DNA of 64,000 nucleotides from Tepidanaerobacteraceae bacterium. Lineage in GTDB: Bacteria > Bacillota > Thermosediminibacteria > Thermosediminibacterales > Tepidanaerobacteraceae. Position 1 is the stretch's first letter; every line of letters starts with the position of its first letter. The stretch is taken from positions 124,001 through 188,000 of the forward strand of contig JANLFP010000001.1 in NCBI GenBank assembly GCA_024655905.1, read 5' to 3'. Both the position numbers and the translations under genes were made by a program. Shown piece after piece: positions 6,764 through 48,682 of the stretch. The notes below the pieces were generated by a model. It made no database searches, was not told the origin of the DNA, and worked only from the letters and a program-made list of their open reading frames with translations.

Positions 6764-6764
6764 A

Positions 6765-6822
6765 ACAAAAAATGGTGTTATTTTTTGTATATTTTACAAA
6801 GGGAATCCCTCCTTTTTATAGA
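6765..6822 (+). promoter_or_regulatory. Candidate promoter and operator in front of the DUF917 gene
   Basis: Just after the PucR stop there is an AT-rich hairpin (ACAAAAAAT ... ATTTTTTGT, 6765-6788). A second inverted repeat overlaps it (TTTGTA, five bases, TACAAA, 6784-6800). TTTACA at 6793-6798, an 18-base spacer and TATAGA at 6817-6822 fit a sigmaA-type promoter. The inverted repeat covers the -35 element, so it could be a PucR site. The first hairpin might instead act as a weak terminator. Confidence 0.45.
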
Positions 6823-6861
6823 ATATAAAATAAAATTTTAAATATTTAAGGGGTGATTCCA

Positions 6862-7944: not shown

Positions 7945-8079
7945 ATGGTTAAGCTTCTTCTATGCCGCCGAAAATCGCCATGTCTTTAAATTTGCAAAAT
8001 CTTATTTAAGCGTTTCCATATAGCCGGGGAGAAGTTGTTTTTCAAGCCTTGGGTTCATGGGTAATTAAACAAAGTGCTA

Positions 8080-8093
8080 TTTAACATGTTAAA
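8080..8093. promoter_or_regulatory. Perfect 14-bp palindrome before the M29-like gene
   Basis: TTTAACATGTTAAA reads the same on both strands. It sits about 8 bases before the AGAGGTG ribosome-binding site of the downstream gene, in a 168-base gap with no other gene. It could bind a dimeric regulator. No second copy was noticed in the window. Confidence 0.4.
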
Positions 8094-8112
8094 ATGCTGA
8101 AGAGGTGATATG

Positions 8113-9147: not shown

Positions 9148-9170
9148 ATATATTTATTGGAGGTTGAACA

Positions 9171-10778: not shown

Positions 10779-10796
10779 TTCCGGGAGTTGATCAAA

Positions 10797-11807: not shown

Positions 11808-11819
11808 GGGGTGAGGCAA

Positions 11820-12707: not shown

Positions 12708-12717
12708 GGTGAACCCT

Positions 12718-13701
12718 ATGGAAAACATACTGGAAATAAAAAACCTGAAGGTTGATTTTGCAACATTCAGAGGCACAGCTCATGTGCTGGACATAGAAGA
12801 CCTCTGCGTCAGGGAAGGCGAAATATACGGCATTGCCGGAGAAAGCGGCTCCGGAAAGAGCATACTGGCTCTTTCAATCTTAAACCTGATCACCCCTCCG
12901 GGAAGGATTGCGCAGGGACAGGTTATTTTTTCCGGAAGGGACCTTCTCAAACTTCACCCGAGGGAAATGAACGGGATAAGAGGGGAAGAAATAGCCATGA
13001 TCTTTCAGGATCCCATGGCTTCTCTCAATCCGGTGCTGACAGTAGGTCAGCAGATGGTGATCACCATAAGACAGCACAGGAAAATCAGCGCCAAAGAGGC
13101 CGAAAAGGAGGCCAAGAGGCGCTTCGAAGATGTAAAACTGCCCGACCCCGACACCACTTTTAAAAAATATCCGCATGAACTTTCGGGAGGAATGAGGCAG
13201 AGGGTTCTGATTGCACTGGCCCTTTCATGCGGTGCAAAACTTCTGATTGCCGATGAAGCCACCCGGGCCCTTGATGTCACCATACAGGCTGGAATCCTGG
13301 ACCTTTTGAGAGAGCTCAGGAAAAACAACGGCACAACTATTCTTCTCATAACAAACAGCCTTGGGGTTGCCGCCCAGATGTGCGACAGAGTGGGCATATT
13401 ATACACCGGCAAAATACTCGAAGAGGCTCCTGTCAGGGATATTTTTAAAAAACCATCGCACCCTTATACAAAAGCCCTGATAGACGCGGTTCCCACGGCA
13501 AACCTCAAAGACCAGAGGCTTCCGAATATCGGTGGTTTTGTTCCCGATCCCATAGACCTTCCCGCGGGGTGCACTTTTGGTCCCAGATGCCCGCATGTCA
13601 TGGAAGTCTGCCGGAGGACAAAACCGGAAAGAATCGGAATAGGCCCCGATCATTTTGCATCCTGCCACCTCGCAAAGAAAAGCGGTGATGATAATGGCTG
13701 A
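12718..13701 (+). CDS. dppD: Dpp/Opp-type ABC transporter ATPase (DppD-like)
   Basis: This is a 327-residue cytoplasmic ATPase. It shows Walker A GESGSGKS near residue 41, the Q-loop IFQDPMASLNP, signature LSGGMRQRV and Walker B LLIADEATRALD. The last 60 residues form the oligopeptide-transport C-terminal domain with a Cys-rich segment, CTFGPRCPHVMEVC. In DppD relatives this segment binds an iron-sulfur cluster. ATG 12718 follows GAGGTGA. One oddity is that the D-loop and H-loop region reads LLITNSLGVAAQ, with Asn-Ser where His-Asp is usual. Thus the catalytic switch His appears replaced. Confidence 0.93.
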   Translation: MENILEIKNLKVDFATFRGTAHVLDIEDLCVREGEIYGIAGESGSGKSILALSILNLITPPGRIAQGQVIFSGRDLLKLHPREMNGIRGEEIAMIFQDPMASLNPVLTVGQQMVITIRQHRKISAKEAEKEAKRRFEDVKLPDPDTTFKKYPHELSGGMRQRVLIALALSCGAKLLIADEATRALDVTIQAGILDLLRELRKNNGTTILLITNSLGVAAQMCDRVGILYTGKILEEAPVRDIFKKPSHPYTKALIDAVPTANLKDQRLPNIGGFVPDPIDLPAGCTFGPRCPHVMEVCRRTKPERIGIGPDHFASCHLAKKSGDDNG

Positions 13702-14656
13702 ACTTCTTAAGACAGTAAATTTGAAAAAATATTTTCCGGTCCGGGGAGGGCTGTTCCAAAGACCCGTAGCATGGGTCCATGCCCTCGATGGGGTCAGCAT
13801 TCAGATAGACGAAGGCGAGTCCCTAGGAGTCGTGGGAGAGTCCGGCTGCGGCAAATCAACCCTTGCCAGGGTTATCACAGGCATTTATGATGCCACATCG
13901 GGCGACATTCTGTTCAAAGGCAAAAGCATATTTTCGAAAGGTGCGACTCATTACAAAAGCATAAGGGAAGATGTGCAGATAGTGTTTCAGGACCCTTACT
14001 GGTCTTTAAACCCGAGACTTCGGGTCATGGACATACTGTATGAACCCCTGGAAAATTCCAAAAAATACAGGGGGGTAAACAAAGCCGCAAAAGCCCGGGA
14101 ACTAATGGAATTGGTGGGACTGGACCCGGAAAAGGCCGGCGAATATCCACACGAATTTTCCGGCGGCCAAAGGCAGAGAATCGCCATTGCAAGGGCCCTT
14201 GCCACGGACCCGAAACTTTTAATACTGGATGAGCCCACTTCAGCGGTGGATACCCTTTCCCAGGCCCAGGTCCTGAACCTCCTGGCCGACCTTTACAGAA
14301 CTCGAAATGTATCATACATGCTAATATCCCATGATTTGGCCGTGGTTCAGTACATCTGCAGGACCATCGCCGTAATGTATTTGGGTCAGGTGGTGGAGTC
14401 GGGCAGGATAGAGGATGTGTTTGAGAACCCCCTTCACCCCTATACCATGGCTCTGTTTTCCGCCATCCCCAGCATAAGCCCCGATAATACTCGAGAAAGG
14501 ATAATCCTTGAGGGCAACGTACCCAGTGCCGTGAATCCGCCGAAGGGCTGCAGGTTCCACACCAGGTGCCCGGAAGCAAAACCCGAGTGTTCGAACGTGG
14601 TTCCGGAACTGAAGGACTACGGCAACGGCCATAGTGCAGCGTGCATAAGGATTTGA
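13694..14656 (+). CDS. dppF: Dpp/Opp-type ABC transporter ATPase (DppF-like)
   Basis: This is a 320-residue cytoplasmic ATPase. It has Walker A GESGCGKS, Q-loop VFQDPYWSLNP, signature FSGGQRQRI, Walker B LLILDEPTSAVD and a normal switch His in LISHDLAVV. The C-terminal peptide-transport domain has a CRFHTRCPEAKPEC cluster motif. It overlaps the preceding ATPase gene by eight bases (ATG 13694 within its end), so it is translationally coupled. It carries the intact switch His that the partner appears to lack, which would make this an asymmetric ATPase pair. A terminator follows. Confidence 0.94.
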   Translation: MAELLKTVNLKKYFPVRGGLFQRPVAWVHALDGVSIQIDEGESLGVVGESGCGKSTLARVITGIYDATSGDILFKGKSIFSKGATHYKSIREDVQIVFQDPYWSLNPRLRVMDILYEPLENSKKYRGVNKAAKARELMELVGLDPEKAGEYPHEFSGGQRQRIAIARALATDPKLLILDEPTSAVDTLSQAQVLNLLADLYRTRNVSYMLISHDLAVVQYICRTIAVMYLGQVVESGRIEDVFENPLHPYTMALFSAIPSISPDNTRERIILEGNVPSAVNPPKGCRFHTRCPEAKPECSNVVPELKDYGNGHSAACIRI

Positions 14657-14719: not shown

Positions 14720-16603
14720 TTACAGTTTCATGGGAATAAATTCCGCATAGTCTTTGAGCGTGCCTTCATAAATGCAGCATTCGATGATTTTTTTGCCCAA
14801 GGGTTCTAAGTCCGGTGACAGAAATTTTTCCAGCTCTTTTTTGAAAAAATCTTTTAATATCTTTGCTCCAGCATCATAGCCTTCATCTCCCACCTCCGGC
14901 TGATGATTAACCTCCAGAAAACCTTTGGGCAAATAAGTTCCGTCTACCTTAATGCTCGCTAAAGAATATCCCAATAGAGCGCATCTAGATTCTACCAGTT
15001 GTTCCGGTTTGAATTTGGCGCTGCCGCGCCTTGCCAGGTATTCCCTTGCTATCCATTGAGGCATAAATCCAACTTTATAAGCGCCTATATGCTGATTTGG
15101 AACCAGTATATATCTCGTATTAGTTGTATCGATAATCTGCCTTAATAAAAGATTTGCCTGGTCAACCATTTTTCCGGTTGCAAAAGGCCAATAGGACCCG
15201 ACACCTTCGCTGCTTATTCCAACAGTATCTATAATGCTGGGATTGTCATGCCCCCGGGGAGCTACTAGACGCCACAGCCACGCAAGTGCAGGAGGCAAAA
15301 TATGGAATAATCCCAAAATACCGTAGGTCGGCTTTTCCTTAGTGCACGGGGGAGTTCTTACCCCGAAACTTCTTACATCTATTTCTACAGGCTCGTCAAC
15401 TACGCTGGGGACAAAACGTCTCGGCATTATCACCCTCGGATTGGGGCATGGTTTGCCCGGTTCATCCATGGTGTGTTCCCAAATCAGGCATGTCGATCCT
15501 GGTACGCCATCGATGTTCAAAAATATCAAAGGTTCTTTCGGGTGAATGGTGAGCTTCTCCAAATGAGGGTCTGTGCCATATTTCGTAATATGATCTATTC
15601 TCAAAAACCATCCCTGTTCTGCATCTTTTACTATCAGCTTTTTGTTGTCCTTTTGCAAAGAAGGATGGCACATTGCCATATCATCGGTTACCGGCTGAAG
15701 TTCGCATGTCTCTTTTAAATCGAGATACAGCTTTTCGCCGGTTTTTAGATTTTTTCCCACCAGTATCCTGCCGTCCGGTTCTTTGTGCAGCTGCTCAATC
15801 ATTTCACTTTTCCCGCTGCCGCTGGCGCCTTCATGCATGATCGCTATAATATTCTCATACGGCGTTATAACTCTAACCGTCGAAGCGTGGACAGTTACCC
15901 AACCTTCCGATTCTCCTATGTTCAGCAGAACCCCATATATTCCTTTTTTTGCGCTCGGGCCCGGATACAAATTGTATGAAAAAAGTTCATGCACATCATT
16001 CAGCCTGTTATGGACAACCACCTGTTTGCCATCAAAATGCGTATGCCTGAACGGAGGTGCAAGATATATTATGGCTTTTGGCTTGAATCCATCCGGAATG
16101 CCGTGTTTGGGAATAAAACCCTGCAAATCAGCGAGACCCGCAGCAAAAAAGCCTGCATTTGCCGGTGCTACAAGGAGAGCGGGATATCCGAATTCTTCTC
16201 CTCCTGCCATAAACGGCATAACTATAAGGTCTTGCTGCTTGAGCCACTCAAAAGTTGTTTTCCTCAATGAAGAAAAGTCCTCTCCATATCTATCGCGATA
16301 CCTCGGTTTGTCAGTATCTCCTCTATCAGCAACAACCATACAATCGGGATCTCTTCTTCTCATATAAATATCCGCATAATTTACTGCAGCACCATTTTTG
16401 CAGCGCGCCACAGTAGCCTCAACTACTCTGCCATTACCCGGTATGTCATAAGCCACCTCAAAAATACCATATTCTTCTTTTCCGAATGCAAGATTTAATA
16501 ATTCGCTTCTGCTATCGGGCACTATTACTTTCTTGCTCTCATTATTCAAAATATCCTTCAACTCATCAGATAGAATAAACTTCTCCAATAATGTATTTTC
16601 CAT
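14720..16603 (-). CDS. DUF4914 family protein, PEPCK/HPr-kinase-like P-loop
   Basis: This 627-residue protein fits the uncharacterised DUF4914 family. Its most informative feature is a P-loop GASGSGKSEM at about 259-268. The pattern resembles HPr kinase (GxSGxGKSE) and phosphoenolpyruvate carboxykinase rather than ordinary kinases. Upstream lies a beta-rich region including HVHELF-like and LAPPFRHTHFDGK segments. Downstream is RTPPCTKEKPTYGILGLFHILPPALAWLWRLV with a hydrophobic stretch. It is probably an ATP- or PPi-dependent enzyme acting on a carboxylate or protein, but no function is known. It stands alone on the minus strand with its own promoter region (16610-16690). Confidence 0.72.
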   Translation of the reverse strand: MENTLLEKFILSDELKDILNNESKKVIVPDSRSELLNLAFGKEEYGIFEVAYDIPGNGRVVEATVARCKNGAAVNYADIYMRRRDPDCMVVADRGDTDKPRYRDRYGEDFSSLRKTTFEWLKQQDLIVMPFMAGGEEFGYPALLVAPANAGFFAAGLADLQGFIPKHGIPDGFKPKAIIYLAPPFRHTHFDGKQVVVHNRLNDVHELFSYNLYPGPSAKKGIYGVLLNIGESEGWVTVHASTVRVITPYENIIAIMHEGASGSGKSEMIEQLHKEPDGRILVGKNLKTGEKLYLDLKETCELQPVTDDMAMCHPSLQKDNKKLIVKDAEQGWFLRIDHITKYGTDPHLEKLTIHPKEPLIFLNIDGVPGSTCLIWEHTMDEPGKPCPNPRVIMPRRFVPSVVDEPVEIDVRSFGVRTPPCTKEKPTYGILGLFHILPPALAWLWRLVAPRGHDNPSIIDTVGISSEGVGSYWPFATGKMVDQANLLLRQIIDTTNTRYILVPNQHIGAYKVGFMPQWIAREYLARRGSAKFKPEQLVESRCALLGYSLASIKVDGTYLPKGFLEVNHQPEVGDEGYDAGAKILKDFFKKELEKFLSPDLEPLGKKIIECCIYEGTLKDYAEFIPMKL

Positions 16604-30311: not shown

Positions 30312-30815
30312 CTATGCCTCTTCTCCCTCTCCCTTTAAAATCACGCCATCCTCGGAAAAAATCGGTGCGCATGCGAGCCCCTTTACGGGTGCCGTGGCAT
30401 TGTTTTTCTCGGCGTGCTCCCACATAATGCGGGAATATTCCGTACAGATCTGGTGCCCGAAGCCGCGGCTGCCCGTGTGTATTAAAACATAAAGGTGCTT
30501 TGGGTATAAGCCAAATTTGGAAGCTATTTCTTTGTCAAACACACGGCTCACCCTGCCGATCTCGATAAAATGGTTGCCGCCTCCTATGGTCCCTAGCTGG
30601 TCAGACCTGTTTTGCGCGGTAGTCGGAATGCAGGAAGCGTCGGCTCCCTTTATGCAACCTCCATCATCCTCTATCCTTTCCAAATCCTCCTTCCATCCGT
30701 AGCCCATCTTTATGAAGTAGCCGGCTCCTTCCGAAGCAATCGCTTCTAAAGGCGGTTTCCTCAGATGTTTTAACGCGCTGGATTTTCCCACGCCGGAAGG
30801 CACCCTGGTGAAACG
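30312..30815 (-). pseudogene. rtcB: Internal fragment of RNA ligase RtcB
   Basis: About 165 codons match the middle of RtcB, the GTP-dependent RNA 3'-phosphate ligase (full length near 480 residues). The recognisable segments are VPSGVGKSS, DDGGCIKGADASCIPTTAQNRSDQLGTIGGGNHFIEI and HTGSRGFGHQI. Both the N-terminal part, with its first metal ligands, and the whole C-terminal half with the guanylation His are missing. It is therefore a remnant and not a working enzyme. Homology begins near 30815, just before the HEPN gene promoter, which suggests that insertion of the HEPN-MNT module truncated it. Confidence 0.82.
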
Positions 30816-30917: not shown

Positions 30918-31304
30918 TTGCGCCAGGAAGTTAAAGATTGGATAGAAAGCTCCGAATACGATTTTGAAACTGCTAAGGCTATGTTTAAAGCCGGAAGATA
31001 CAATTACTGTATCTTTATGTGCCACCAGGCTGTAGAAAAATTATTGAAGGCACTTATTATTTTTCTAAATAAAGAATTTCCGCCAAAGACGCACAACCTG
31101 ATTATCCTATTAGAAGAGATTGATCACTACCCCGATAAAGAGATGCAAACGATTATTTTAAAATTAAATCCACATTATATGGTTTCAAGGTACCCGGACG
31201 CCGCCGGAGGACCCAGTCACAAAATGTACAATGATCAAATCGCTTCAGAGTTTTTAAAGGACACTGAGAAGGTGATGGAATGGTTAAAACAAAAGATGAA
31301 ATAA
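30918..31304 (+). CDS. HEPN-domain protein (putative toxin of a HEPN-MNT pair)
   Basis: This is a 128-residue helical HEPN protein. Core segments are WIESSEYDFETAKAMFKAGRYNYCIFMCHQAVEKLLKALI, the usual first two helices, and SRYPDAAGGPSHKMYN. No RX4-6H motif of HEPN ribonucleases is visible, so RNase activity is uncertain. The start is TTG 30918, after AAGGAG. The gene overlaps the nucleotidyltransferase gene by 25 bases. HEPN-MNT pairs are known toxin-antitoxin systems in which the transferase modifies the HEPN protein with AMP. Confidence 0.84.
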   Translation: MRQEVKDWIESSEYDFETAKAMFKAGRYNYCIFMCHQAVEKLLKALIIFLNKEFPPKTHNLIILLEEIDHYPDKEMQTIILKLNPHYMVSRYPDAAGGPSHKMYNDQIASEFLKDTEKVMEWLKQKMK

Positions 31305-31609
31305 TTAAAATAATTAATGATTATATAAAAAACCTTAATAATCATGTGAAAATAGACAGAGTTATCCTGTTTGGCTCATATGCAAGAAACGAAGCTTTGA
31401 GCTCCAGCGATGTAGATTTTTTAATCGTATCCGATGACTTTAGCGGTATGAGTTTTTTTGAAAGGCTAGAATTCCTTCAAAAGTTCTGGAATTATAACGT
31501 AGGTGCCGATATACTGGGATATACTCCAGGGGAAGTTGAAGAAATGTCGAAAAAAATAAGTTTTGTATCGGAAATTGTTAAAACAGGAATTGATATAAAA
31601 GCTGAATAA
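31280..31609 (+). CDS. Minimal nucleotidyltransferase (putative antitoxin of a HEPN-MNT pair)
   Basis: This 109-residue MNT-fold protein has the motif GSYARNEALSSSDVD (GS, ten residues, DxD), which binds metal and nucleotide. A third acidic residue is in GADILGYT. It overlaps the HEPN gene by 25 bases. In characterised pairs it neutralises the HEPN partner by attaching AMP. It ends 11 bases from the convergent AroM gene, at a 14-bp palindrome AATAAAGCTTTATT (31609-31622). Confidence 0.86.
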   Translation: MVKTKDEIIKIINDYIKNLNNHVKIDRVILFGSYARNEALSSSDVDFLIVSDDFSGMSFFERLEFLQKFWNYNVGADILGYTPGEVEEMSKKISFVSEIVKTGIDIKAE

Positions 31610-31620
31610 ATAAAGCTTTA

Positions 31621-32286
31621 TTACAATAATTCGCTTACCACTTTGGCTACAATGGAACGGGCTAGAATTACAGGTTTTTTAACATGCTGCAGCACTACAT
31701 CTTTCATCTGCAGAGTATATCCCATACAGTCCATTACCACAAGATCAACCCCCGATGTCGCAAGCAATTTTGCCGCTTTTTCTATATTCTCCATTCCTGC
31801 GTACGGCGACCCCGGTTCCACGATTACCTTTGACGCTACCGTAGACCACCGTTCTTTTGCGGAAACCACCTGGCGTTCATCGGGTATGATTATCCCCAGC
31901 GTCAGGCCTTCGGCCAGGGAACTTACCACGTGGTGCAGTACTTTCTGCGGTCGGACTATAAGGGAAGCTGAATCAAATGATGGGAATTCTCCCGTGCAAG
32001 CCAGAAATATAGTGTTAATTCCTTCTGCTTCCAGATTTTTTATCTTTTCTTTCAACCGCGGAAATATTTCTCTTTCCGCCACTTTAACCTCAGTCCCGTC
32101 AGCCATCCGGGTGACCAGGACCTCGTCATCCTGCCGGGGATAAAGGGCTTCTACTTCTTTTATTGTGAGTCCGTCAAGAGCCCCTCTTTCAATGATTTCT
32201 ACATCTTCTCCCAGAACTGTTTTGATTTCAGGAACGAGATCTACCCTTGGAGCCTGGCCTATGGTTAAAAGACCTATTTTTTTCAT
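31621..32286 (-). CDS. aroM: AroM family protein
   Basis: This is a 221-residue cytoplasmic protein of the AroM family, related to Asp/Glu/hydantoin racemases. It opens with IGLLTIGQAPRVDLVPEI and has paired Cys segments, FLACTGEFPSF and VMDCMGYTLQM. The two cysteines sit where racemases keep catalytic residues. AroM was named from an operon in E. coli and its function is unknown. ATG 32286 follows GAGGTGA; GTG 32295 overlaps that site. It is the last gene of a cluster with DUF1177, M29-like and PepV genes, which suggests amino-acid or cyclic-amide metabolism. Confidence 0.84.
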   Translation of the reverse strand: MKKIGLLTIGQAPRVDLVPEIKTVLGEDVEIIERGALDGLTIKEVEALYPRQDDEVLVTRMADGTEVKVAEREIFPRLKEKIKNLEAEGINTIFLACTGEFPSFDSASLIVRPQKVLHHVVSSLAEGLTLGIIIPDERQVVSAKERWSTVASKVIVEPGSPYAGMENIEKAAKLLATSGVDLVVMDCMGYTLQMKDVVLQHVKKPVILARSIVAKVVSELL

Positions 32287-32387
32287 AGCATTCACCTCGC
32301 ATTTATTTTGTTTTTATGAGAATAAAAACACGATAAATGATAGGTACAACCCGGGGAACCAGGGCTGCACTCTTTTAAGTTGTGCCC

Positions 32388-33335
32388 TCATACCATCAAC
32401 CTGCCTTTATCCATGATTAATCGGCCATCTATAAAAACCGTCGGTTCCAGAACTACGGCATCCATGTGCACACCCGCACTGACTTTACCGCCAAATGTAT
32501 TGTTGCTTCCAAAGGCCACATGGATTGTACCCAAAATCTTTTCATCTTCTAATATATTTCCGGACAATATGGCATTTGGATTTGTCCCGATTCCAAACTC
32601 AGCTACATTTCTGGCGGTATTGGAACTCCCCAGCATTTCCAGCCATTCCCCGGCACCTTCTCCCTGGGCGTCCGTCAAAAGCCCCTTCCTTATTTCAAGC
32701 AATATGGGCGACTTGAGCCTTCCAATGCCAACGATACTTCCATCCACCAGAATATCTCCGAAGGCCGAACCCTCCACAGGTGCGATATAGGCTTCACCCG
32801 ACGGCAGGTTCCCCGATTGACCTTTTTCAAGATACCTGCCGGTGCTTTCAATGCCTTTTCTTCCTTCAATGCTCATCTCCAGCTTATAACCGTCTTTCTT
32901 TATGACAACACTGCTTCCAAGAGTTAAAATTTCAGCAATTTCTTTGGTTAACTTTTCAACTTCACTGTAGTCCGCCGTAATGGCGCCTCTCAGAAACATC
33001 TCTTTTGTAATCCCCGGCATGGTGGCTATTCTTGCCCCCGCTGCAGCGGCTTCCTTTTTAGCCCGGGTGTGGGTCAGCGAGTGCTGGGTTATGCATATAA
33101 CCACATCGGAATTCTTCATGGCCTCCGCCGCCGCTTCCGGCGGTTCCTCCCCGGATTTTGAAAGGGCTGGTATCTTGAAGAACATTGAAATCATGCCCAA
33201 TTCCTGCCCTGCTTTATATAGATGCTCTGCTAGGTCTTCTTTATAATCATCGGTGAGCACCAGTAATTTCTCTCCGGGCTTTGCTCCTAGGCAGCCAAGC
33301 AGCAATTTTTTTGATATGTCAATAATGTCGCTCAT
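32388..33335 (-). CDS. M29-type aminopeptidase-like metalloprotein
   Basis: This 315-residue protein is the shortest M29-like paralogue here. All five classical metal ligands can be placed: Glu in AEFGIGTNP, Glu in LEDEKILG, His in GTIHVAFG, and His and Asp in GVHMDA. This matches aminopeptidase T and so differs from the three other paralogues in the window. The mid-region LPSGEAYIAPVEGSAFG is the usual M29 substrate loop. It starts five bases after the DUF1177 stop. It probably cleaves an N-terminal residue or an amide in the same pathway. Confidence 0.82.
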   Translation of the reverse strand: MSDIIDISKKLLLGCLGAKPGEKLLVLTDDYKEDLAEHLYKAGQELGMISMFFKIPALSKSGEEPPEAAAEAMKNSDVVICITQHSLTHTRAKKEAAAAGARIATMPGITKEMFLRGAITADYSEVEKLTKEIAEILTLGSSVVIKKDGYKLEMSIEGRKGIESTGRYLEKGQSGNLPSGEAYIAPVEGSAFGDILVDGSIVGIGRLKSPILLEIRKGLLTDAQGEGAGEWLEMLGSSNTARNVAEFGIGTNPNAILSGNILEDEKILGTIHVAFGSNNTFGGKVSAGVHMDAVVLEPTVFIDGRLIMDKGRLMV

Positions 33336-33340
33336 TTTAC

Positions 33341-34273
33341 CTATTCCCTTCCCAGTGTCTTTAAATGTTCCATGGAACCGTATAGTCTTTTAATGATTTC
33401 CCACTCTTTCTCGTCGTAAAACTTGCATATCTTCCTGCCAAAGTTTTTGGCGACTTCCAGGGCAAACCTTGCAGCAAGCTCTATATCTACTTCATGGGAA
33501 GCTCCCGTGGCACATCCGGGCACCGCGGTTTCGGCAGTTATGGCCACCCCTACCACGGGACTGGAAGTTGCGGTACATGGCTGGACGAGGCTGTTTATAT
33601 GAAAAATCCCATTGCCATACGGAGTTATGTCCTGTATCGTTATTGGTAAAACTACCGGCAGTTTTCCTGTTACTATCTGCATGATATCGAGAAGCGAATC
33701 GCTTATTTTAAGTATATAACCGTCTTTAATAGTCGGAGTAATGGCAAATCCCCTCTGGTTGACAATCCTGTTGCCTTTTGTTGTATCAATGGAGAGAATG
33801 GCATCCATCCGGGGATCTACTTCCATTTTATTCATCATTTGCATATCCACCGGCGAACCCATAAACGGCACAGGGTCGTGGGGCTCCGTAGGCGCATCGG
33901 GGCAAATGTGAGTGGCAATGATTACATCGCCATCGAGAAAGTCGCCTTTTGAATTCATGTCGGCCAGTTTCAGCGCCACCGAAAGGGCCGCAGCGGCTCC
34001 GTCGCCATCCGACACATATCCTATCATTTCCGGCCTTGCACCGATTCCGCCAAGCCTTCCTATGATACCCAGAGTCGGTGCATCTCCACCGGAGAGTTTC
34101 CCTCGGGTACCTTTAACTACTATTTTTACAAAGTCGGTCTTGCCAACTTCACCCTTTACCTCTTCTACAAGTATGTCATCAAGACCTCTTTTTGATAAAA
34201 ACTCCTTGACTTTTTGCCCATTTACCCTGGCATCATCTAAAATATCTATTATTTCCAGGACCTGTTTTAACAT
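33341..34273 (-). CDS. DUF1177 protein
   Basis: This 310-residue soluble protein belongs to the uncharacterised DUF1177 family. Features are LGIIGRLGGIGARPEMIGYVSDGDGAAAALS, a His-rich IATHICPDAPTEPHDPVPFMGSPVD and PCTATSSPVVGVAITAETAVPGCATGASHEVDIE. The conserved His, Asp and Glu residues look like a metal-dependent hydrolase site, but this is only inference. ATG 34273 follows GGAGGG; a longer reading lacks one. It lies in a tight run: 22 bases after the DUF917-like gene and five before the M29-like gene. Confidence 0.82.
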   Translation of the reverse strand: MLKQVLEIIDILDDARVNGQKVKEFLSKRGLDDILVEEVKGEVGKTDFVKIVVKGTRGKLSGGDAPTLGIIGRLGGIGARPEMIGYVSDGDGAAAALSVALKLADMNSKGDFLDGDVIIATHICPDAPTEPHDPVPFMGSPVDMQMMNKMEVDPRMDAILSIDTTKGNRIVNQRGFAITPTIKDGYILKISDSLLDIMQIVTGKLPVVLPITIQDITPYGNGIFHINSLVQPCTATSSPVVGVAITAETAVPGCATGASHEVDIELAARFALEVAKNFGRKICKFYDEKEWEIIKRLYGSMEHLKTLGRE

Positions 34274-34295
34274 TAGTATCCCTCCATTTTTCGTA

Positions 34296-34679
34296 CTAAA
34301 AGACATAATCTATTATTTTTTTGCCTACCGCTTTTTCACATGCATAAAAAAGCTCAGGATCTTGCAATCCTGCACCTAATTTTATTTTCTCCTTTTCCAC
34401 CTTTAATACGGCGATTTTCTGGCGTTCTCTTATTTCGGCTGAAGTGACCGGAATTCCGGTGTCTGCATCCAGTGTCATTATAAGGTCGGGGAAAGTGGCA
34501 AGCCGCTCTCCCGATTTTTCCAAAGTCATATATTCGTTCCAGAATGTAATTTCATAATCTTTTTCTAAGACAACCTTCCCTACATCAAAGCCACCTGTTG
34601 ATTCCAGATAAACTTTTTCTACGGTGCCGGAAACTATCAACTCACCTTTTAGATAATCACAATTATATTCCCAGTTCAC
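34296..34679 (-). CDS. Stand-alone DUF917 C-terminal domain protein
   Basis: This 127-residue protein resembles only the last third of DUF917/S-methylthiohydantoin-desulfurase-like proteins. Its EKVYLESTGGFDVGKVVL and ATFPDLIMTLDADTGIPVTSAEI parallel GEIFIEGMAEDTGH and TIPDLITLLDENAAPVTNP of the full-length protein at 6862-7944. It lacks the glycine-rich N-terminal domain. The start (GTG 34679) lies 17 bases inside the upstream M29-like gene, so translation is coupled. It may act as a substrate-binding subunit for the M29-like protein, or it may be a decaying fragment. The intact frame and coupling favour the first. Confidence 0.65.
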   Translation of the reverse strand: MNWEYNCDYLKGELIVSGTVEKVYLESTGGFDVGKVVLEKDYEITFWNEYMTLEKSGERLATFPDLIMTLDADTGIPVTSAEIRERQKIAVLKVEKEKIKLGAGLQDPELFYACEKAVGKKIIDYVF

Positions 34680-35718
34680 TGCAAAGTTTTACTAGCTCTG
34701 GATGAACATATTTGCCTTCTTTTTCTATGACTTCTCCATCAAAAATTATCGTTGGATTTAACACTATTCCGTCGGTGTGGGAAGCGCTTTTCCATGTCTT
34801 GCCCTTTATCTGAGGTCCCTGGCTTCCAAGACCCATTTCAATGCATCCGAATACCCTTTCGTCTTCGACGATCCTCCCGGTGGGTTTAGTTACGCCTGGA
34901 TTGAATCCCAGAGAATAATGGGCAAGCCAGTACATGGTAGGATCGTTAAAGCTTGCCAGCCACCTTTCAAAAATTTTCGCTTCCGCCCCTCCTTCGATAT
35001 TTTTCACCACTCCGTTTTCAAGAGTAAGCTCAACCGGTGAACGCAATAGACCCAATTCAGCAGGGGGCCACAAAGCACCGTCGAATACCAGCTTCCCATT
35101 GATAGTCTCTTCAACCGGACACCAGGATACCTGTCCGCCAAGCATTATGGGTTCGCCTTTGGTATCTGCCAGCTTACCAGATTGTCTTACCTTTCTGCCT
35201 CTATTGTAAGCTTTTAAATCTGTTCCCGCCGGGCTTTGAATTATCACCTCATCGGCATTTTCGGCTAATTGCCGCAATTTTTCACCCAGCTCCAGCATCT
35301 TAGAATAATTAACCCTGCCGATAGTATTCACCATCATTAAAGCATCCATACCGGTCAGGCAGATATAACGGCAGCCTTCGTCCAAAGCACGTCTCCAGGC
35401 CTGGGTATGAAGTATATATGCGTACGAAAACTCTATCCAGACGTCCGCATTTTTTACGGCTCCCGCAACTACCCTGGGAGGTTCTACTACAGCGGTAGGC
35501 CTTGTATCATACCATACTACTGTAGGTACTGCTCCTGCAGAGTATGCTGCCTTGGCCACTTCTTCTATAACTCGCCTATCTGAGGAAGTATCTCCTGAAA
35601 TTACTACTTCTTCACCCTCTTTTACTAGCATTATGTCTTCCACTAATTTTCTTGCACTTTTCGCAAGTTCTAAGAATAAAAATTCATCTCTTGTTTCAAT
35701 GCCTATGTTTAATTCCAT
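34663..35718 (-). CDS. M29/NicX-like metalloprotein, tandem copy 1
   Basis: This is a 351-residue paralogue of the protein at 35845-36909; both open with MELNIGIE and share most motifs. The metal site reads LAHYSLGFNPG, EDERVFGCIEMG and SHTDGI: His, Glu, Glu, His and Asp. The order differs from classical M29 peptidases and fits NicX, whose iron is held by two His and one Asp. The mid-domain contains LGGQVSWCPVEETINGKLVFDGALWPP. ATG 35718 follows AAGGAAGG. Substrate and reaction are unknown. An anaerobe would not be expected to use a dioxygenase, so a hydrolytic role is more likely. Confidence 0.8.
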   Translation of the reverse strand: MELNIGIETRDEFLFLELAKSARKLVEDIMLVKEGEEVVISGDTSSDRRVIEEVAKAAYSAGAVPTVVWYDTRPTAVVEPPRVVAGAVKNADVWIEFSYAYILHTQAWRRALDEGCRYICLTGMDALMMVNTIGRVNYSKMLELGEKLRQLAENADEVIIQSPAGTDLKAYNRGRKVRQSGKLADTKGEPIMLGGQVSWCPVEETINGKLVFDGALWPPAELGLLRSPVELTLENGVVKNIEGGAEAKIFERWLASFNDPTMYWLAHYSLGFNPGVTKPTGRIVEDERVFGCIEMGLGSQGPQIKGKTWKSASHTDGIVLNPTIIFDGEVIEKEGKYVHPELVKLCSELGI

Positions 35719-35844
35719 AAATATTACCTTCCTTTCATACATTAGTAAGATAAAATCTGACTTTAAAAATAAATTCATCATATTAATCGTAGCACTAAAA
35801 TCATAAATATTTTTAATTACGTAAGAAAAAATTCCGAGATTACA

Positions 35845-36909
35845 TCAATACCCCGCCACATTTAATCTCCTACATATCTCTCTTGCTTCCGGCAGCTGAT
35901 ATATGCCGTTTTCTTCAAAAACCTTGCCGTCAAGAATAATCGTTGGTTTTAATAAAATTCCATCAGTGTGTGAAGCGGCCGACCAGCATTCTCCCATGAT
36001 TGATGCTCCCTGACTGCCGATGCCGAATTCCATGCAGCCGAATACCCTCTCGTCTTCCACTATCCTGCCGGTGGGTCTTGTTACACCGGGGTTGAAGCCC
36101 AGAGAATAGTGCGCAAGCCTGTACATATTCAGGTCATTCATCGATTTCAGCCAGTTTTCAAAGATCTTCGCTTCCACATCTCCGTCTATGCTCACCACCC
36201 GGCCTTCCTTTAATTCCAATTTGACTGGATTCTTGAGTAACCCCAGCTCCAGCGGCGGCCACAGAGCTCCATCAAAGACCAGTGTCCCGTTAATGGTGCT
36301 CTCTACCGGACACCAGCTTATCTGGCCGCCCAGCATGATGGGATAGCCTTTTTGAGTGGCCTTCTGCCCTGAATGGCGCACCCTCCTGCCACGATTATGA
36401 GCTGTCAGATAAGTGCCATTATCGCTTTTAACTATTATTTCATCCGCAGATTGTATCGTATCTTTAAACAACTCTCCCAACTCAATAAGCAGGTCATAAT
36501 CCACTCTCGTAATCGTCTTCACCAGCATTTCCACATCCATACCGGTAAGACATATATACCTGCAACCGTTTTCCAGAGATTTTTTCCAGGAGGGCGAGTG
36601 CATGACATAAGAATAAGTGTATTCTATCCAGACATCCGCTTTCGCAACTGCTCCTCCCACAGGAGCAGGAGGTTCAATACACGCATTGGGTGCAGTGGGG
36701 TAATATAATACAGTTGGCATCGCCCCTATGGTGTAAACCGCATTGGCCGTAGCCTCAACTACTCTTCGATCAGTGGAAGAATCGGCGGTTATAACGACAT
36801 TCTCTCCTTCTTTAACCAGCATAACGTCTTTAACCAGTTTTAGAACACCTTTTGCAAGTTCGAAGCTCAAATATTCTTTTGCCGGTTCTATCCCGATGTT
36901 CAACTCCAC
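35845..36909 (-). CDS. M29/NicX-like metalloprotein, tandem copy 2
   Basis: This 354-residue protein has the same architecture and metal motifs as its neighbour (LAHYSLGFNPG, EDERVFGCMEFG, SHTDGI). The pair probably arose by tandem duplication, with clear divergence since then. The start is GTG 36909, after AAAGGATGA, at the same MELNIGIE position. It follows pepV by 65 bases and precedes copy 1 by 126 bases. Two copies could form a hetero-oligomer or have different substrates. Confidence 0.8.
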   Translation of the reverse strand: MELNIGIEPAKEYLSFELAKGVLKLVKDVMLVKEGENVVITADSSTDRRVVEATANAVYTIGAMPTVLYYPTAPNACIEPPAPVGGAVAKADVWIEYTYSYVMHSPSWKKSLENGCRYICLTGMDVEMLVKTITRVDYDLLIELGELFKDTIQSADEIIVKSDNGTYLTAHNRGRRVRHSGQKATQKGYPIMLGGQISWCPVESTINGTLVFDGALWPPLELGLLKNPVKLELKEGRVVSIDGDVEAKIFENWLKSMNDLNMYRLAHYSLGFNPGVTRPTGRIVEDERVFGCMEFGIGSQGASIMGECWSAASHTDGILLKPTIILDGKVFEENGIYQLPEAREICRRLNVAGY

Positions 36910-36974
36910 AGTGAATCATCCTTTCTTTAGAAATAAAAGTTTTTTAACAGAAAATCTTAAAATCAAACTGATTT

Positions 36975-38372
36975 TTATTTTATTAACTCATAAATTGCCT
37001 GAACATAAATTTTAGCTATCCTTCTCAGGTCTTCCAGAGCAATATACTCATCCTTCTGATGGGCCAGTTCTTTTTGTCCGGGAAAAACGGGTCCGAAAGA
37101 AACAGTATTTTTTACATTTCTGCAGTATGTGCCCCCTCCTATGGACAGGAGCTTTGGTTCGTCACCAGTCATCTCTTTATATACGCCCTGCAGTTTTTTT
37201 ATAAATCCGTTTTCCGGCTCGACATATAGAGGCAATTTGTGCTGGTTTATCAAAAATTCCGCTCCCAGATCGTCGAAAGCTTTTTTGAGATTTGCAATTA
37301 TATCGTTTCCGTCTTCCGTTACAGGATACCTTATGTCAAACTTAAGGCTCCCCCGTTTTTCATAAAAATCCGCTACGCCCAGATTTATTGTTAGAGCTCC
37401 CGAAATCTCGTCGCTGCAGGATATTCCAAGAGTTTTTCCATCTGACTCCATTTTCAATCGGCCGGCTACCGCATCAATGAAAGTTTTTGCCTCTTTACCG
37501 CCAAAATCAATCAGTGTTAGGAAATTCAGGAGTATTTGAATGGCGTTTTCTCCGTCTCCCGGGTAACTGGCATGGGCAGAGATACCTTTTGCCTTTAAAA
37601 TGACGCCTTCCAGCGACTTCTCTATATATATTTTGCCTGCAAGCCCATGTTCTCTAATTTTAGATTCTATTTTCTGATCATCCACACCTTCTATTACAGC
37701 TTCCGCATAATCGGGCACCACATTTACCCGGGTTCCGCCTCTTATTTTTTTCAGAATTACTTCGGATCCTGGACTATCGTCAAAGTTTTTTATCAGTTCA
37801 AAGCGCAGAATGCCCTTTTCCGCATATATAATGGGAAACTCGGCATCCGGGGAAAATCCGCATACAGGCTGTTCTTCCTTTTCAAGATAATGCTTTATGC
37901 ATCTTGCACCGGTCTCCTCGTCGGTTCCTATGATAAACCGCGCTCTCTTTGAAACCGGCAGATGGGAATCTTCTATAGCTTTTAAAGCATATAAAACCGC
38001 GAGAGTCGGGCCTTTATCATCTATGGAACCCCTGCCATACAGTTTACCTTCTTTAATCTGCCCTTCGAAAGGATCCACTGACCAGCCCGTCCCCGCTGGG
38101 ACTACATCTATATGACCCAATATCCCTACCATCTCAGGGCCGTTACCTATCTCAACATATCCTGCATACCCGTCCACATTTTTTGTTTTTAATCCCAGCT
38201 CTTCGCCTTTTTTTAATATCCATCTAAGGGCTTCATCTATTTTGGGCCCGAAGGGAAAACTTTCATCCATCTTTTCTTCATCCAAAACGCTTGGAATCTT
38301 TATAAACTCTTGAAGATTCTTTACCAACTCATCAAAATACTCGTCGATTTTTATATTTAGAATATGCTCCAC
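36975..38372 (-). CDS. pepV: M20 family dipeptidase (PepV type)
   Basis: This is a 465-residue cytoplasmic metallopeptidase. The metal-binding motifs are GHIDVVPAGTGW, GRGSIDDKGP and TDEETGA, followed by FSPDAEFPIIYAEKG; a late GGGTYCRNVKNTVSFGPVFPG completes the site. The length and the inserted lid domain match PepV/Sapep dipeptidases. GTG 38372 follows AAAGGAG. It probably releases amino acids, or a D- or beta-amino acid, from dipeptides produced by this cluster. Confidence 0.91.
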   Translation of the reverse strand: MEHILNIKIDEYFDELVKNLQEFIKIPSVLDEEKMDESFPFGPKIDEALRWILKKGEELGLKTKNVDGYAGYVEIGNGPEMVGILGHIDVVPAGTGWSVDPFEGQIKEGKLYGRGSIDDKGPTLAVLYALKAIEDSHLPVSKRARFIIGTDEETGARCIKHYLEKEEQPVCGFSPDAEFPIIYAEKGILRFELIKNFDDSPGSEVILKKIRGGTRVNVVPDYAEAVIEGVDDQKIESKIREHGLAGKIYIEKSLEGVILKAKGISAHASYPGDGENAIQILLNFLTLIDFGGKEAKTFIDAVAGRLKMESDGKTLGISCSDEISGALTINLGVADFYEKRGSLKFDIRYPVTEDGNDIIANLKKAFDDLGAEFLINQHKLPLYVEPENGFIKKLQGVYKEMTGDEPKLLSIGGGTYCRNVKNTVSFGPVFPGQKELAHQKDEYIALEDLRRIAKIYVQAIYELIK

Positions 38373-38463
38373 GATATCGCTCCTTTAGTATTGCGTTTTG
38401 ATTCTTAATTTTATCATATTGTATACTTGTATTTCATTATGCATTTATCACAAATAACATAGT

Positions 38464-38571
38464 CTATTTTATGCATTTTGCAAAGCAAGGCAATTTGATA
38501 ATTTCGGCTTCCAATTCCACCTCTTTGTTCCATATATGTGTAGATACGGGCACAATTATATCTAATATCAT
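38464..38571 (-). pseudogene. Short ORF resembling the N-terminus of an Asp/Glu racemase family protein
   Basis: A 35-codon ORF starts at ATG 38571 after a strong AAGGAGGG. Its opening MILDIIVPVSTHIWNKEV looks like the first strand and helix of Asp/Glu/hydantoin racemase family proteins. It ends at a TAG with no continuation in other frames that I could follow. It is probably the stub of a racemase gene that once headed this cluster. It could instead be a short leader peptide for pepV, which begins 91 bases on. Confidence 0.45.
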
Positions 38572-38671
38572 CAAATCCCTCCTTTGCCGTATAATTTTTA
38601 TAATATTGCTACCATACTGTTATTTTTAATTTTAACACAATAAAATATGTTTAACCTATTGCATTAATAAT

Positions 38672-38724
38672 AAAAAACAGCTTCTTAATTGTGCAAAATG
38701 CCCAATAAAGAAGCTGTAGTTTTT
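38672..38724. terminator. Bidirectional terminator between PucR and the racemase-like stub
   Basis: ACAGCTTCTT and AAGAAGCTGT (38678-38717) form a ten-base-pair stem. On the minus strand it is followed by TTTTTTA and on the plus strand by GTTTTT. It ends the PucR transcript. Confidence 0.8.
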
Positions 38725-38779
38725 CAAAAAAATCTTGAATAAATTTATACCCCGGGATTAAGAATCAAAGATTCTTTTA

Positions 38780-40438
38780 TTATAATAAGTTAGCTATTTT
38801 TAAACCAATCTCGAGCCTCAACCTAGTGGAAGGGTCGTTCAGGTCGCAGTCGAGTATCTCTCTTATCTTGTTTAATCTGTAATTTAAGGTGTTCCGGTGG
38901 ATAAAAAGCTTTTCGGCGGCCATATTATGTTTGCCCGTGCAATCAAGATAAACTCTCAGGGTGTTTAGTAAATTTTCTTCTTTGTTTTTTGAATCGTATT
39001 CGATGAGTTTGAAAAGTCTTCTATCGCAGAATTTTTTAAGATTTTCGTTTTCCTTACAGCTTAAAATAAAATCATATATCCATACATCTTTATAAAACAC
39101 TATGCTGCCGGTGCCATTTTTTAACATATTCGCAAGTTCCAGGGACTTTTTTGCCTCAATATATCCTTCAGATATTTTTGCTACATCGTCATGAAAATCG
39201 CTGATACCAAATCTTATCTCTTTTATGCCTCCCAGTGTCTTTAAAATATTTTTGCACAGAATATTTATTTCATTATATTTTCCGATGGTCCTGCCATCGG
39301 AGAAACTGCAAATTATTATTATATCTTCACCCTTTCTCAATATAACATGTCCGTGCAAAAACGGCGCCATTGCGCTTTCAAGGACCTTGAAATCTTCTTC
39401 TTCCGCTTTCAAAGCGCTTTTATAATTCATATGGATGACTATCACGGCAATATCCCCTTTAAAATTTACGACATAATATTTCAGCCGACTTTTTATCTGT
39501 GAAACATCCCGTATATTTCCTTCAAGGATATTTTCGAAAAATTCCCTTTTTACTTTTCCTTCGGCCTGCTTTACCGCCTGCTTTTTCATGATCTCAAGTG
39601 CGGCGATTGTTGCCGCCTGTTCAGCGGCTATCAAATCGAAATCGCCAAATCGCGAGTCGTTTTCAATTAAAGTGATATAACCGCATATTTCGCCTTTAAT
39701 TATAATGGGCGCTATTACTCTTGTATAACAGTTATTTCTACTCCTTATATTCACCCTCACGGGCTTTTTAAATGTTTTTATCTTATTAAATATTCCTTTT
39801 TTATCCATCTCTTCAATCACGTCAAGAGGAATCCTGCCGTTTTTTATTATCTCCAGGCTTAATGCATCGCAGGCACCACGGCAGTTTGAGAAGGATAAAA
39901 GATTAAAACTTTCGTCTTCTATAAAAACATTGCAGTTTAAAAGATAGGAAAGAGTGCCGGCAACAGCCGCCAGATCTCCACCCTGCAGCGCAACCTTCAT
40001 GAGCTCATCGTGTATTTCAAAGGAACGCTTTATAATGCCTGCTTCTTTATTCAAAATTTCCAGCATGATAGGATTTACTATATCATGCCAGGCTACATAT
40101 ACCGGCAGTTCAATAATTGGAAAATTTTTTTCATTTGCGGGCTCTATTATCTGCGGTGGAATTTTGTCAATAAATCTTCCGGGTTTTATGGCAAGAGCAG
40201 AACAATTTCTTTCGACCAAATCATAAACGAAGGTTTTCTCCATATTGGGATTATTCATAAAAACATACGCCGCTGTAAGCAAAAGTTCATTTCCTCTGAT
40301 CCACTTGGCAGCATCAGGAACATCCATCGTTATTACATAGTTGACAATCCTATCGAGGCCCTTTTCACCCGCTACTACCTTTGCATTTTTCAATTCACCT
40401 ATTTGAAGTGCTTCCCGCACCGTAATTCCCATACTCAT
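38780..40438 (-). CDS. PucR-family transcriptional regulator with long middle domain
   Basis: This 552-residue regulator has an N-terminal PucR domain (about 1-125, opening MGITVREALQIGE), a middle GAF-like/GGDEF-related region (about 160-400) and a C-terminal PucR helix-turn-helix (FIHRNTLNYRLNKIREILDC). It is longer than the first PucR protein because of the middle domain. It is transcribed towards the AroM/M29/DUF1177 cluster but ends in its own terminator. It is the obvious regulator of that cluster. ATG 40438 and ATG 40432 are both possible starts. Confidence 0.88.
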   Translation of the reverse strand: MSMGITVREALQIGELKNAKVVAGEKGLDRIVNYVITMDVPDAAKWIRGNELLLTAAYVFMNNPNMEKTFVYDLVERNCSALAIKPGRFIDKIPPQIIEPANEKNFPIIELPVYVAWHDIVNPIMLEILNKEAGIIKRSFEIHDELMKVALQGGDLAAVAGTLSYLLNCNVFIEDESFNLLSFSNCRGACDALSLEIIKNGRIPLDVIEEMDKKGIFNKIKTFKKPVRVNIRSRNNCYTRVIAPIIIKGEICGYITLIENDSRFGDFDLIAAEQAATIAALEIMKKQAVKQAEGKVKREFFENILEGNIRDVSQIKSRLKYYVVNFKGDIAVIVIHMNYKSALKAEEEDFKVLESAMAPFLHGHVILRKGEDIIIICSFSDGRTIGKYNEINILCKNILKTLGGIKEIRFGISDFHDDVAKISEGYIEAKKSLELANMLKNGTGSIVFYKDVWIYDFILSCKENENLKKFCDRRLFKLIEYDSKNKEENLLNTLRVYLDCTGKHNMAAEKLFIHRNTLNYRLNKIREILDCDLNDPSTRLRLEIGLKIANLL

Positions 40439-40655: not shown

Positions 40656-41192
40656 ATGGTATTTATTGAAAATACCAAAATCTGCATTTCCCAACTTAAG
40701 ACTTTTTCGCAGCTACATCAGCAATATCTTAATTGCGTGCTGACGCGTATACATGATTACTATGGAGATTTGCTCCTGGGTCTGGCAATTTTTGGTTCAT
40801 ATGCACGGCTTGAAAACCGAAAAAATTCCGACCTGGATTTGCTGATAATTTTAAAAAAAGTTCCGGGTTTCAGCAAACGCATTCGGGACTTCATCAACAA
40901 TGTAGAACTCGAATTTGATTTTTTAGCTCAGAAAATATATGAAGAAGACAATATAATGTGCGAGCTTTCCCCTTATATTCTATCAAAGGAAGAATCGCTT
41001 AAATTTCAACCCATCTATTTTGATCTGGTTGAGTATAATAATATCTTGTATGATCCCGAAGGCATCATATCTCGCATTATCGAATCTACAAAGAGTTTAA
41101 TAATCCGATGTGGCGCAAAAAAGGTTAGATGCGGCAACTTCTGGGAGTGGGGAACAGAAAAAGGTGAATTTTTAGGAGGTACTCAATTATGA
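40656..41192 (+). CDS. Nucleotidyltransferase-domain protein (MNT-HEPN pair 2)
   Basis: This 178-residue protein has the MNT motif GSYARLENRKNSDLD and a third acid in LEFDFLAQ. It is longer than the first MNT protein, with a C-terminal extension ending GEFLGGTQL. It overlaps the following HEPN gene by four bases (ATGA). The order here is MNT then HEPN, the reverse of the first pair. It is probably the antitoxin that modifies the HEPN partner. Confidence 0.82.
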   Translation: MVFIENTKICISQLKTFSQLHQQYLNCVLTRIHDYYGDLLLGLAIFGSYARLENRKNSDLDLLIILKKVPGFSKRIRDFINNVELEFDFLAQKIYEEDNIMCELSPYILSKEESLKFQPIYFDLVEYNNILYDPEGIISRIIESTKSLIIRCGAKKVRCGNFWEWGTEKGEFLGGTQL

Positions 41193-41602
41193 AAATTGAT
41201 GCCTTAACTTTAGCTTATCTGGAAAAAGCAAGGATTCGATTCAAGGCGCTGGGTTTTTACAGCGAAAATTGTTCTTATTCTGACGTAGTCAGAGAAGCCC
41301 AAGAAATGGTGGAATTATTATTAAAGGCCGTTCTGAGAGCCATAGGTGTGGAAGTGCCAAAAATACATGACGTTGGCCGCATACTTGAAAAGCATAAGGA
41401 TTCCCTTCCTGCCCTCTTACAACAACGACTTGAAGATATCAAAAAGATATCAAAACGCCTGCGGAAGGAAAGAGAACTTAGTTTTTACGGCGCTGATGAT
41501 TTTATACCTACTGAAGAATATGGCCCCGAAGATGCTAAAATGGCTATTGAAGATGCGGGATTCGTTCTAAAAACCGTTGAGGAAGCATTTAATAATACCT
41601 GA
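41189..41602 (+). CDS. HEPN-domain protein (MNT-HEPN pair 2)
   Basis: This is a 137-residue helical HEPN protein with SYSDVVREAQEMVELLLKAVLRAIG and KIHDVGRILEKHKDSLP, the central helices of the family. The RX4-6H ribonuclease motif is not visible. AAGGAGGT-like GGAGGT lies seven bases upstream of ATG 41189 inside the partner gene. It may be a toxin or a metabolite/nucleotide-binding partner of the MNT protein. Confidence 0.8.
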   Translation: MKIDALTLAYLEKARIRFKALGFYSENCSYSDVVREAQEMVELLLKAVLRAIGVEVPKIHDVGRILEKHKDSLPALLQQRLEDIKKISKRLRKERELSFYGADDFIPTEEYGPEDAKMAIEDAGFVLKTVEEAFNNT

Positions 41603-46352: not shown

Positions 46353-46745
46353 ATGCTGTATAAAAACTATCTTCTTGACACCACCGCTATTATTGAAGTA
46401 CTGCGGGGAAATAAGAGCATAAAAAAACTCATTGAACGCTGGCTTGACGAAGGTAACAATATATGCTATTCGATATTATCAGTTTATGAAGTATATAGCG
46501 GTATGCGGGAAGGAGAAGAGAAAGGCATCAAGGCTTTCTTTGAAGGTTTTTCATGTTGCAATTTAACCCCGCCCATTGCAGAACAAGCCGGTAAATGGAC
46601 TATATACTACAGGAAAAAAGGCATTACCATTAGCGGTTTTGATGCTCTAATCGGCGCTACGGCATACCTGAATAAATGCATACTTGTCACTGCTAATGTA
46701 AAACATTTTCCAATGCTGGAAGAAAATCAGATTTATAAACACTGA
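46353..46745 (+). CDS. vapC: PIN-domain ribonuclease toxin (VapC type)
   Basis: This 130-residue toxin carries the PIN acidic residues: Asp9 in YLLDTTAI, Glu46 in SVYEVYSG and Asp in SGFDALIGATAY, with TANVKHFP near the end. PIN toxins cleave tRNA or mRNA and are held inactive by the antitoxin encoded six bases upstream. It ends eight bases before the partial prdF copy. Confidence 0.9.
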   Translation: MLYKNYLLDTTAIIEVLRGNKSIKKLIERWLDEGNNICYSILSVYEVYSGMREGEEKGIKAFFEGFSCCNLTPPIAEQAGKWTIYYRKKGITISGFDALIGATAYLNKCILVTANVKHFPMLEENQIYKH

Positions 46746-47725: not shown

Positions 47726-48682
47726 ATGCAAAAAATAATTTTATCCCATAAAAAAACGGCAAAACGGGCTCTGGCGATTGATAGCAAAGCCATAAGCTCC
47801 ATTGCAGCAGGCATAAACAAAAACCAAAAAACAGACGGCCGCAGAGACAACGATGCCACTTGGGGCAAAAAAGAATATCGAGGCGTCAGAGAAGACGGAA
47901 GCGCATGGGAAAAGATCGTAAAGTGGTTTGGATATAAGCTGCACCTGATCGTAGATGCGAACTATGAACTTCCTGTAGCCTACAGAGTAACAAAAGCTTC
48001 GGAGTCGGATATCAACGAAGCTCACCGGATGATTGACAAACTTGAGGAAGAACGGCCGCAGATTCTTAAACACTGCGATACAATGGAAGCAGACCGGGGC
48101 TATGATGATACCAAACTAATAAAAAAACTTTATGACCAGCATAAAATCAAGCCTGTGATAGACATCAGGAACATGTGGAAAGATCCGGACGAGACCCGGC
48201 AATTACAAGGGTATGAAAATGTGATATACAACTACAAAGGCAATGTATACTGCTGCTGTCAGGAAACCGGCAAAGAGAGAGAAATGGCTTCAGGAGGATT
48301 TGAAAAAGACAGAAAGACACTAAAAAAACTATGCCCTGCAAAGCAATATGGAATCGACTGCAAATGCATAAATACATGTCCTTCAAAAAGGGGGGGGAAT
48401 AAGAATAAAAATAGATACAGACAGGAGAATATTTACACCTATAGACCGGTCTAGCTACAAATAGAAAAGATATTACAACAAAAGGACAGCAGTAGAAAGA
48501 GTAAACAGCAGCCTGGACGAATCCTTTGGATTTGAGAACTAAAGAAAATGAGAGTAAAATCCGGTATAGCATTATGCGTAATGCTGGCAATGGCAGTAGG
48601 GCGAATAAAAGAAAAGCAGGCAGAAAAAATGCGCAGTCTTGTAAAACCGGTTCAAAAAGGAAAGGTCCAAACCGCTGCATAA
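47726..48682 (+). pseudogene. Degenerate DDE transposase (IS5/IS1182-like)
   Basis: The recognisable core is KWFGYKLHLIVDANYELPVAYRVT and EADRGYDDTKLIKKLYD, with the DDE-type Asp residues. The N-terminal part is missing. After a run of eight G near 48390 the frame shifts. The rest (AVERVNSSLDESFGFE and MLAMAVGRIKEKQAEKMRSL) continues in another frame with two further stops. It is therefore inactive. It lies between the orphan relB and the sigma54 regulator. Confidence 0.85.

Follow-up and report, generated by a model that had tools for sequence, protein, structure and literature searches.

The gene cluster at positions 31621-40438 of the window analyzed here (the whole stretch 124,001-188,000 of contig JANLFP010000001.1, 64 kb, from the Tepidanaerobacteraceae bacterium assembly GCA_024655905.1) is very probably, judging from its architecture and its differences from close relatives, a deletion form of a longer cassette. 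On balance, we favor the view that it derives from a conserved cassette, controlled by a PucR or an IclR regulator, that would import and hydrolyze a peptide-like compound. Eight open reading frames (ORFs) on the minus strand were checked by profile searches (Pfam, NCBIfam, PDB), and all eight genes named by an earlier sequence-only reading were found there, each in the family assigned to it. The unit that this reading made of them is incomplete in the window, which lacks the transporter, both PF01177-type racemases and the larger part of DUF917.

In two further members of the family (loci L021 and L022), one of them about 93% identical in DNA, a syntenic cluster has the same neighbors, RtcB and genes of a sugar ABC transporter, and runs in the order PucR, rac1, PepV, two NicX-like genes, OPT transporter, rac2, full DUF917, DUF1177, M29-like gene and AroM. 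Four intact genes are found there in excess of the window: rac1, the OPT transporter, rac2 and the full DUF917. By blastn, the window and L021 share 91-95% DNA identity in most cluster segments, with clean breakpoints. At 38494-38502, about 609 bp are missing relative to L021 (1494/2103), leaving roughly the first 23 codons of rac1 (MILDIIVPVSTHIWNKEVELEAE..., 38495-38571, minus strand); the full rac1 of L021 is a PF01177 protein, and the gene also occurs in L022. At 34653-34661, blastn and the junction sequence locate the loss of about 3242 bp (3.24 kb, L021 5946-9188), comprising the OPT transporter, rac2 and codons 1-237 of DUF917. A third break, at 30340-30345, lacks about 575 bp of RtcB; this internal deletion cuts the gene to 163 amino acids (30312-30803, minus strand), against 477 in the intact genes of L021 and L022. 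Completeness of the genome is rated at 99.98%. Neither a family search nor a protein search, the latter run without a positive control, found an OPT gene elsewhere in it; the family search alone is weak for OPT, as the L021 transporter itself falls under the Pfam reporting threshold, and both searches together are reasonable. The other DUF917 genes of the genome are remote paralogues (28-31% identity), none of them close. An assembly error could give the appearance of such deletions, and reads would be required to exclude it.

The PucR-family transcriptional regulator (552 amino acids; 38780-40438, minus strand; PF07905 6e-32, HTH_30 8e-24) shares its position with both same-family genomes. 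The genes had been described as tightly packed with PucR at the head; they do lie on one strand, but between PucR and PepV there are about 400 bp containing the first codons of the deleted racemase gene and a terminator-like hairpin 3' of PucR (38660-38745, minus strand; minimum free energy -22.9, z -5.1 relative to shuffled sequences) with a U run behind it. A scan for consensus promoters gave little excess, 29 matches against 23.1 (SD 4.4) in shuffles. The remaining ORFs, all on the minus strand, are PepV, an M20 dipeptidase of the PepV/Sapep type (465 amino acids; 36975-38372; NF005591 541.3 bits, cut-off 435; TIGR01886 372.9 bits, under its cut-off of 632); the NicX-like M29-superfamily proteins A (354 amino acids; 35845-36909; profile A7 against NicX 7cn3, E = 3.3e-25) and B (ORF of 372 amino acids with the homologous start at 35718; 34663-35781; 62% identical to A and aligned to NicX in profile A7); the DUF917 ORF (34296-34679); DUF1177 (321 amino acids; 33341-34306, start probably 34273; PF06675 2.5e-139); the M29-like protein C, or M29C (315 amino acids; 32388-33335; PF02073 4.5e-8, above cut-off); and AroM, of the Asp/Glu-racemase superfamily (224 amino acids; 31621-32295; PF07302 1.5e-78). 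In the relative G005 (L021:3694-4756), NicX-like A is split into two ORFs of 133 and 211 amino acids, probably by a frameshift.

Conservation of the cassette was assessed in two samples. Among 101 relatives chosen independently of DUF1177, this gene occurs in 16 genomes (the window's own included) and a full AroM in 14; the two are found together in 13 genomes and alone in 3 and 1, respectively (Fisher p = 9e-13), lying no more than 2.1 kb apart in 12 of the 13. The second sample takes in 80 loci with DUF1177 that span Bacillota, Spirochaetes, Thermococcus, Bathyarchaeota, Aminicenantes, Anaerolineales, Serratia and further groups of the GTDB genomes. They were picked by similarity to the query, which makes the sample biased; its counts are minima, given many short contigs (49 loci have full flanks) and few reference proteins per marker. 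Within 6 kb of DUF1177 and on the same strand, AroM is found in 59 of these loci, rac2 in 35, M29C in 34, DUF917 in 33, OPT in 32, dppB in 22, PucR in 13, the NicX-like proteins in 5 and PepV in 3. Co-occurrence thus goes far beyond chance, and the proposal that these genes should be described as a unit, which an absence of conserved co-occurrence would have undone, is borne out in both samples. By this comparison of sequences, the co-occurring set is a real conserved unit, which appears damaged in the window. PepV and the two NicX-like genes, previously counted among its members, are lineage-specific extras rather than core genes. The transporters replace each other: 31 loci have OPT only, 21 Dpp only and one has both (p = 3e-5), an exchange suggesting that the imported substrate is peptide-like. 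In about nine loci (L018:10705-11529, L019, L039, L040, L054, L064, L078 and L088 among them), a family of about 275 amino acids, c13, adjoins DUF1177, AroM or M29C; it has no Pfam match, as tested on the L018 member.

The AlphaFold model of DUF1177 (pLDDT 85, pTM 0.89) retrieves M28, M17 and M20 exopeptidases and glutaminyl cyclase with Foldseek (best 6e-9, probability 1.00), so that a zinc-exopeptidase-like fold is predicted; residues D100, D102, H143, D174 and H236 are invariant. In AroM, C100 and C190 are kept in 65 of 65 sequences, and both cysteines of rac2 in 40 of 40, as expected for two-base racemases. The rac2 of a Thermococcus cassette (L043) matches the crystal structure 2eq5 (E = 9.5e-102) and is an apparent orthologue of this Pyrococcus protein, a "hypothetical hydantoin racemase" by annotation only, whose counterpart is deleted in the window. 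AroM, whose family is uncharacterized (PMC11055893), is a predicted two-cysteine racemase; being intact with both cysteines, it fits poorly the "racemase-like stub" of the earlier description. The M29-like proteins form two groups: M29C exceeds the Pfam M29 cut-off, while A and B (M29A and M29B) are sub-threshold and closest to NicX. Residues E181, E246, H272, H290 and D292 of M29C are conserved in 44-45 of 45 sequences, E181 and E246 aligning with Glu residues of PepS, and the five constitute what we take to be the full M29 metal-ligand set. As in the M29 aminopeptidases PepS, AmpS and AmpT (4icq, 1zjc, 2ayi), two Glu, two His and one Asp stand at M29-type positions; in contrast to these enzymes, M29C is about 100 residues shorter, and its profile scores higher with NicX (9e-17) than with PepS (2e-10). 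Going by the conserved ligands, M29C would be of the peptidase type, with a putative aminopeptidase function. The full-length DUF917 of L021 aligns over its entire length with the (S-methyl)thiohydantoin desulfurase models NF058529 and NF058532, whereas only the last third of the protein is left in the window.

We infer from these families a substrate class and an order of reactions. The substrate would be peptide-like, perhaps an amide that is cyclic or of hydantoin type, or else a peptide containing D or isomerized residues. It would be imported by the OPT transporter in the complete cassette and by the Dpp ABC transporter in other genomes; the two-cysteine racemases rac2 and AroM would invert a stereocenter, the ring or amide would be the target of DUF917 and the M29/NicX-like proteins, and amino acids would be released by DUF1177 and the M20 protein PepV. 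The genes remaining in the window may still act on a substrate imported otherwise, for instance via a second PucR locus, or may be heading for loss. The peptide-like class is evenly poised between being right and wrong in our estimation, and confidence in any particular substrate is low. The earlier suggestion of an amino acid or peptide in modified or cyclic form agrees with the racemase, DUF917 and peptidase chemistry and with the peptide-type transporters; it stops short of a demonstrated substrate, and the absence of a measured substrate for any cassette member weighs against the import-and-hydrolysis scheme itself. So do several further points. None of five core genes is found in 16 of the 80 DUF1177 loci, partly because of short contigs. 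The Foldseek TM-scores of DUF1177 are only about 0.5, and the protein has no obvious HxD motif of zinc peptidases. The L021 DUF917 falls under both desulfurase cut-offs (326 against 440 and 284 against 450 bits). OPT proteins also transport metal chelates, as does YS1, so peptide import is uncertain. Finally, M29C has acquired 7 synonymous and 9 nonsynonymous changes on the window branch, hinting at relaxed constraint.

Two alternatives concern the state of the locus. It is very hard to sustain that the cluster is a complete, self-sufficient hydantoin or diketopiperazine unit in which the DUF917 C domain, listed as a gene by the sequence-only reading, is a real stand-alone protein. The 127-residue ORF is open and overlaps its neighbors, and its companions are intact, most of them showing purifying selection; nevertheless, it is a deletion remnant that lacks S-Me-THD_N and covers only positions 66-163 of the 190 in S-Me-THD_C (PF20906, the only match), and it shares 96% identity with residues 237-358 of the 358-residue L021 protein, with homology beginning exactly at the deletion junction. 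Most of the conserved polar residues of DUF917 fall in the deleted part, and the cluster has no transporter. A plain decay of the DNA, with the remaining genes as non-functional relics after the loss of uptake, racemases and DUF917, is rather unlikely but deserves more weight. At least three deletions in the stretch (rac1, OPT-rac2-DUF917, RtcB) and the many nonsynonymous changes in M29C are in its favor, whereas only DUF917 and rac1 are broken within the cluster, the other seven ORFs being full-length with neither stops nor frameshifts. Parsimony counts of window-branch changes, L022 serving as the outgroup, amount to 16 synonymous and 1 nonsynonymous in DUF1177, 18/4 in NicX-like A, 17/3 in NicX-like B, 23/17 in PepV, 17/9 in PucR and 4/2 in AroM. 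The nonsynonymous to synonymous ratio, 0.06 in DUF1177 and close to 0.2 in both NicX-like A and B, reflects purifying selection on these retained genes and suggests that function was kept over most of the window branch; branch counts are not dated relative to the deletions, so that selection before and after them is inseparable. AroM is nearer to L022 than to L021 and similarity is patchy along the cluster, which points to exchange between strains, and single-gene counts therefore need care.

The other two alternatives concern the substrate. An oxidative catabolism of N-heterocycles of the pyridine type by the NicX-like proteins was set aside and is highly improbable. NicX, a 2,5-dihydroxypyridine dioxygenase (PDB 7cn3, PMC7910607), is the closest solved structure to M29A and M29B, and within the conserved candidate ligand set of Gln, His, Glu, His and Asp that both proteins carry (Q196, H267, E294, H314 and D316 in A), of NicX rather than peptidase type, H267, H314 and D316 align with the NicX Fe ligands H265, H318 and D320 and are invariant in 15 of 15 M29A/B homologues. 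However, Ser302 of NicX, a ligand whose mutation yields an inactive enzyme (PMC7910607), is replaced by an invariant Gly296, and an additional Glu294 lies nearby. Moreover, searches of the genome for heme-copper COX1 and bd oxidases, run with positive controls, found none, making O2-dependent NicX chemistry unlikely, and the neighboring genes encode peptidases and racemases. Uptake and recycling of a metal chelate or opine-like compound, in which a YS1-like OPT protein would import an amino-acid chelator to be processed by AroM, racemases and hydrolases, is improbable as well, though marginally less so. The OPT model is best matched by barley YS1 (TM 0.73), but no other OPT-type structure came back with confidence, so that the match says little on the substrate, and Dpp peptide transporters replace OPT in other cassettes. 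The idea that the cassette transporter has no family was dropped, as 29 of 29 tested members of the wider family match PF03169 and the model matches YS1.

As regards racemase, DUF917, AroM and OPT, the association is known from earlier work: hydantoin racemases (PF01177), DUF917, AroM, OPT or ABC peptide transporters and peptidases are enriched next to CDO-like genes, and hydantoin- or allantoin-related substrates were suggested for these clusters (PMC11055893, Nat Commun 2024). The same families make up the present cassette; unlike the CDO-associated clusters, the window cluster has no CDO-like pair, and nitroreductases account for 2 of the 54 non-core neighbors surveyed. A candidate pair beside AroM in Aminicenantes (L091:11275-12241) proved to be a nucleotidyltransferase (MNT)-HEPN pair. 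DUF1177 is not mentioned in the main text of that paper; literature searches on DUF1177 returned only unrelated work and no cassette role, and those on AroM with DUF917 or PucR returned only PMC11055893 as relevant. Added here are DUF1177 and the M29-like members, the exchange of OPT and Dpp, a fold prediction for DUF1177 and the view of the window copy as a deletion form. A tentative generalization, to which we give somewhat less than even credence, is that DUF1177, AroM, rac2, DUF917 and M29C/NicX-like proteins form an undescribed pathway of bacteria and archaea for one class of peptide-derived compounds, with OPT and Dpp interchangeable, DUF1177 as the signature hydrolase and the NicX-like branch as O2-independent hydrolases. 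A set kept together in bacteria and archaea with no assigned reaction would indicate a real nutrient that biochemistry has yet to name. For DUF1177, a family with no assigned function, the locus provides a predicted fold, partners and a hint of the transporter, and the pairing of a natural deletion strain with intact close relatives makes the function testable by comparison.

The second PucR locus (5618-14656, plus strand) lies 17 kb from the cluster and comprises PucR, an intact DUF917, a NicX-like M29 protein with no Pfam match and a complete Dpp/Opp ABC transporter; it may possibly provide, in trans, both uptake and the chemistry of DUF917. It is followed by DUF4914 (14720-16603, minus strand). 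Both flanks of the cluster carry toxin-antitoxin-like pairs of HEPN and nucleotidyltransferase genes (30918-31609 and 40656-41602, plus strand); in L021, the interval between AroM and RtcB has no ORF of at least 90 amino acids. Further along the window are a PIN-domain protein (46353-46745, plus strand) and a DDE transposase fragment (47726-48454, plus strand).

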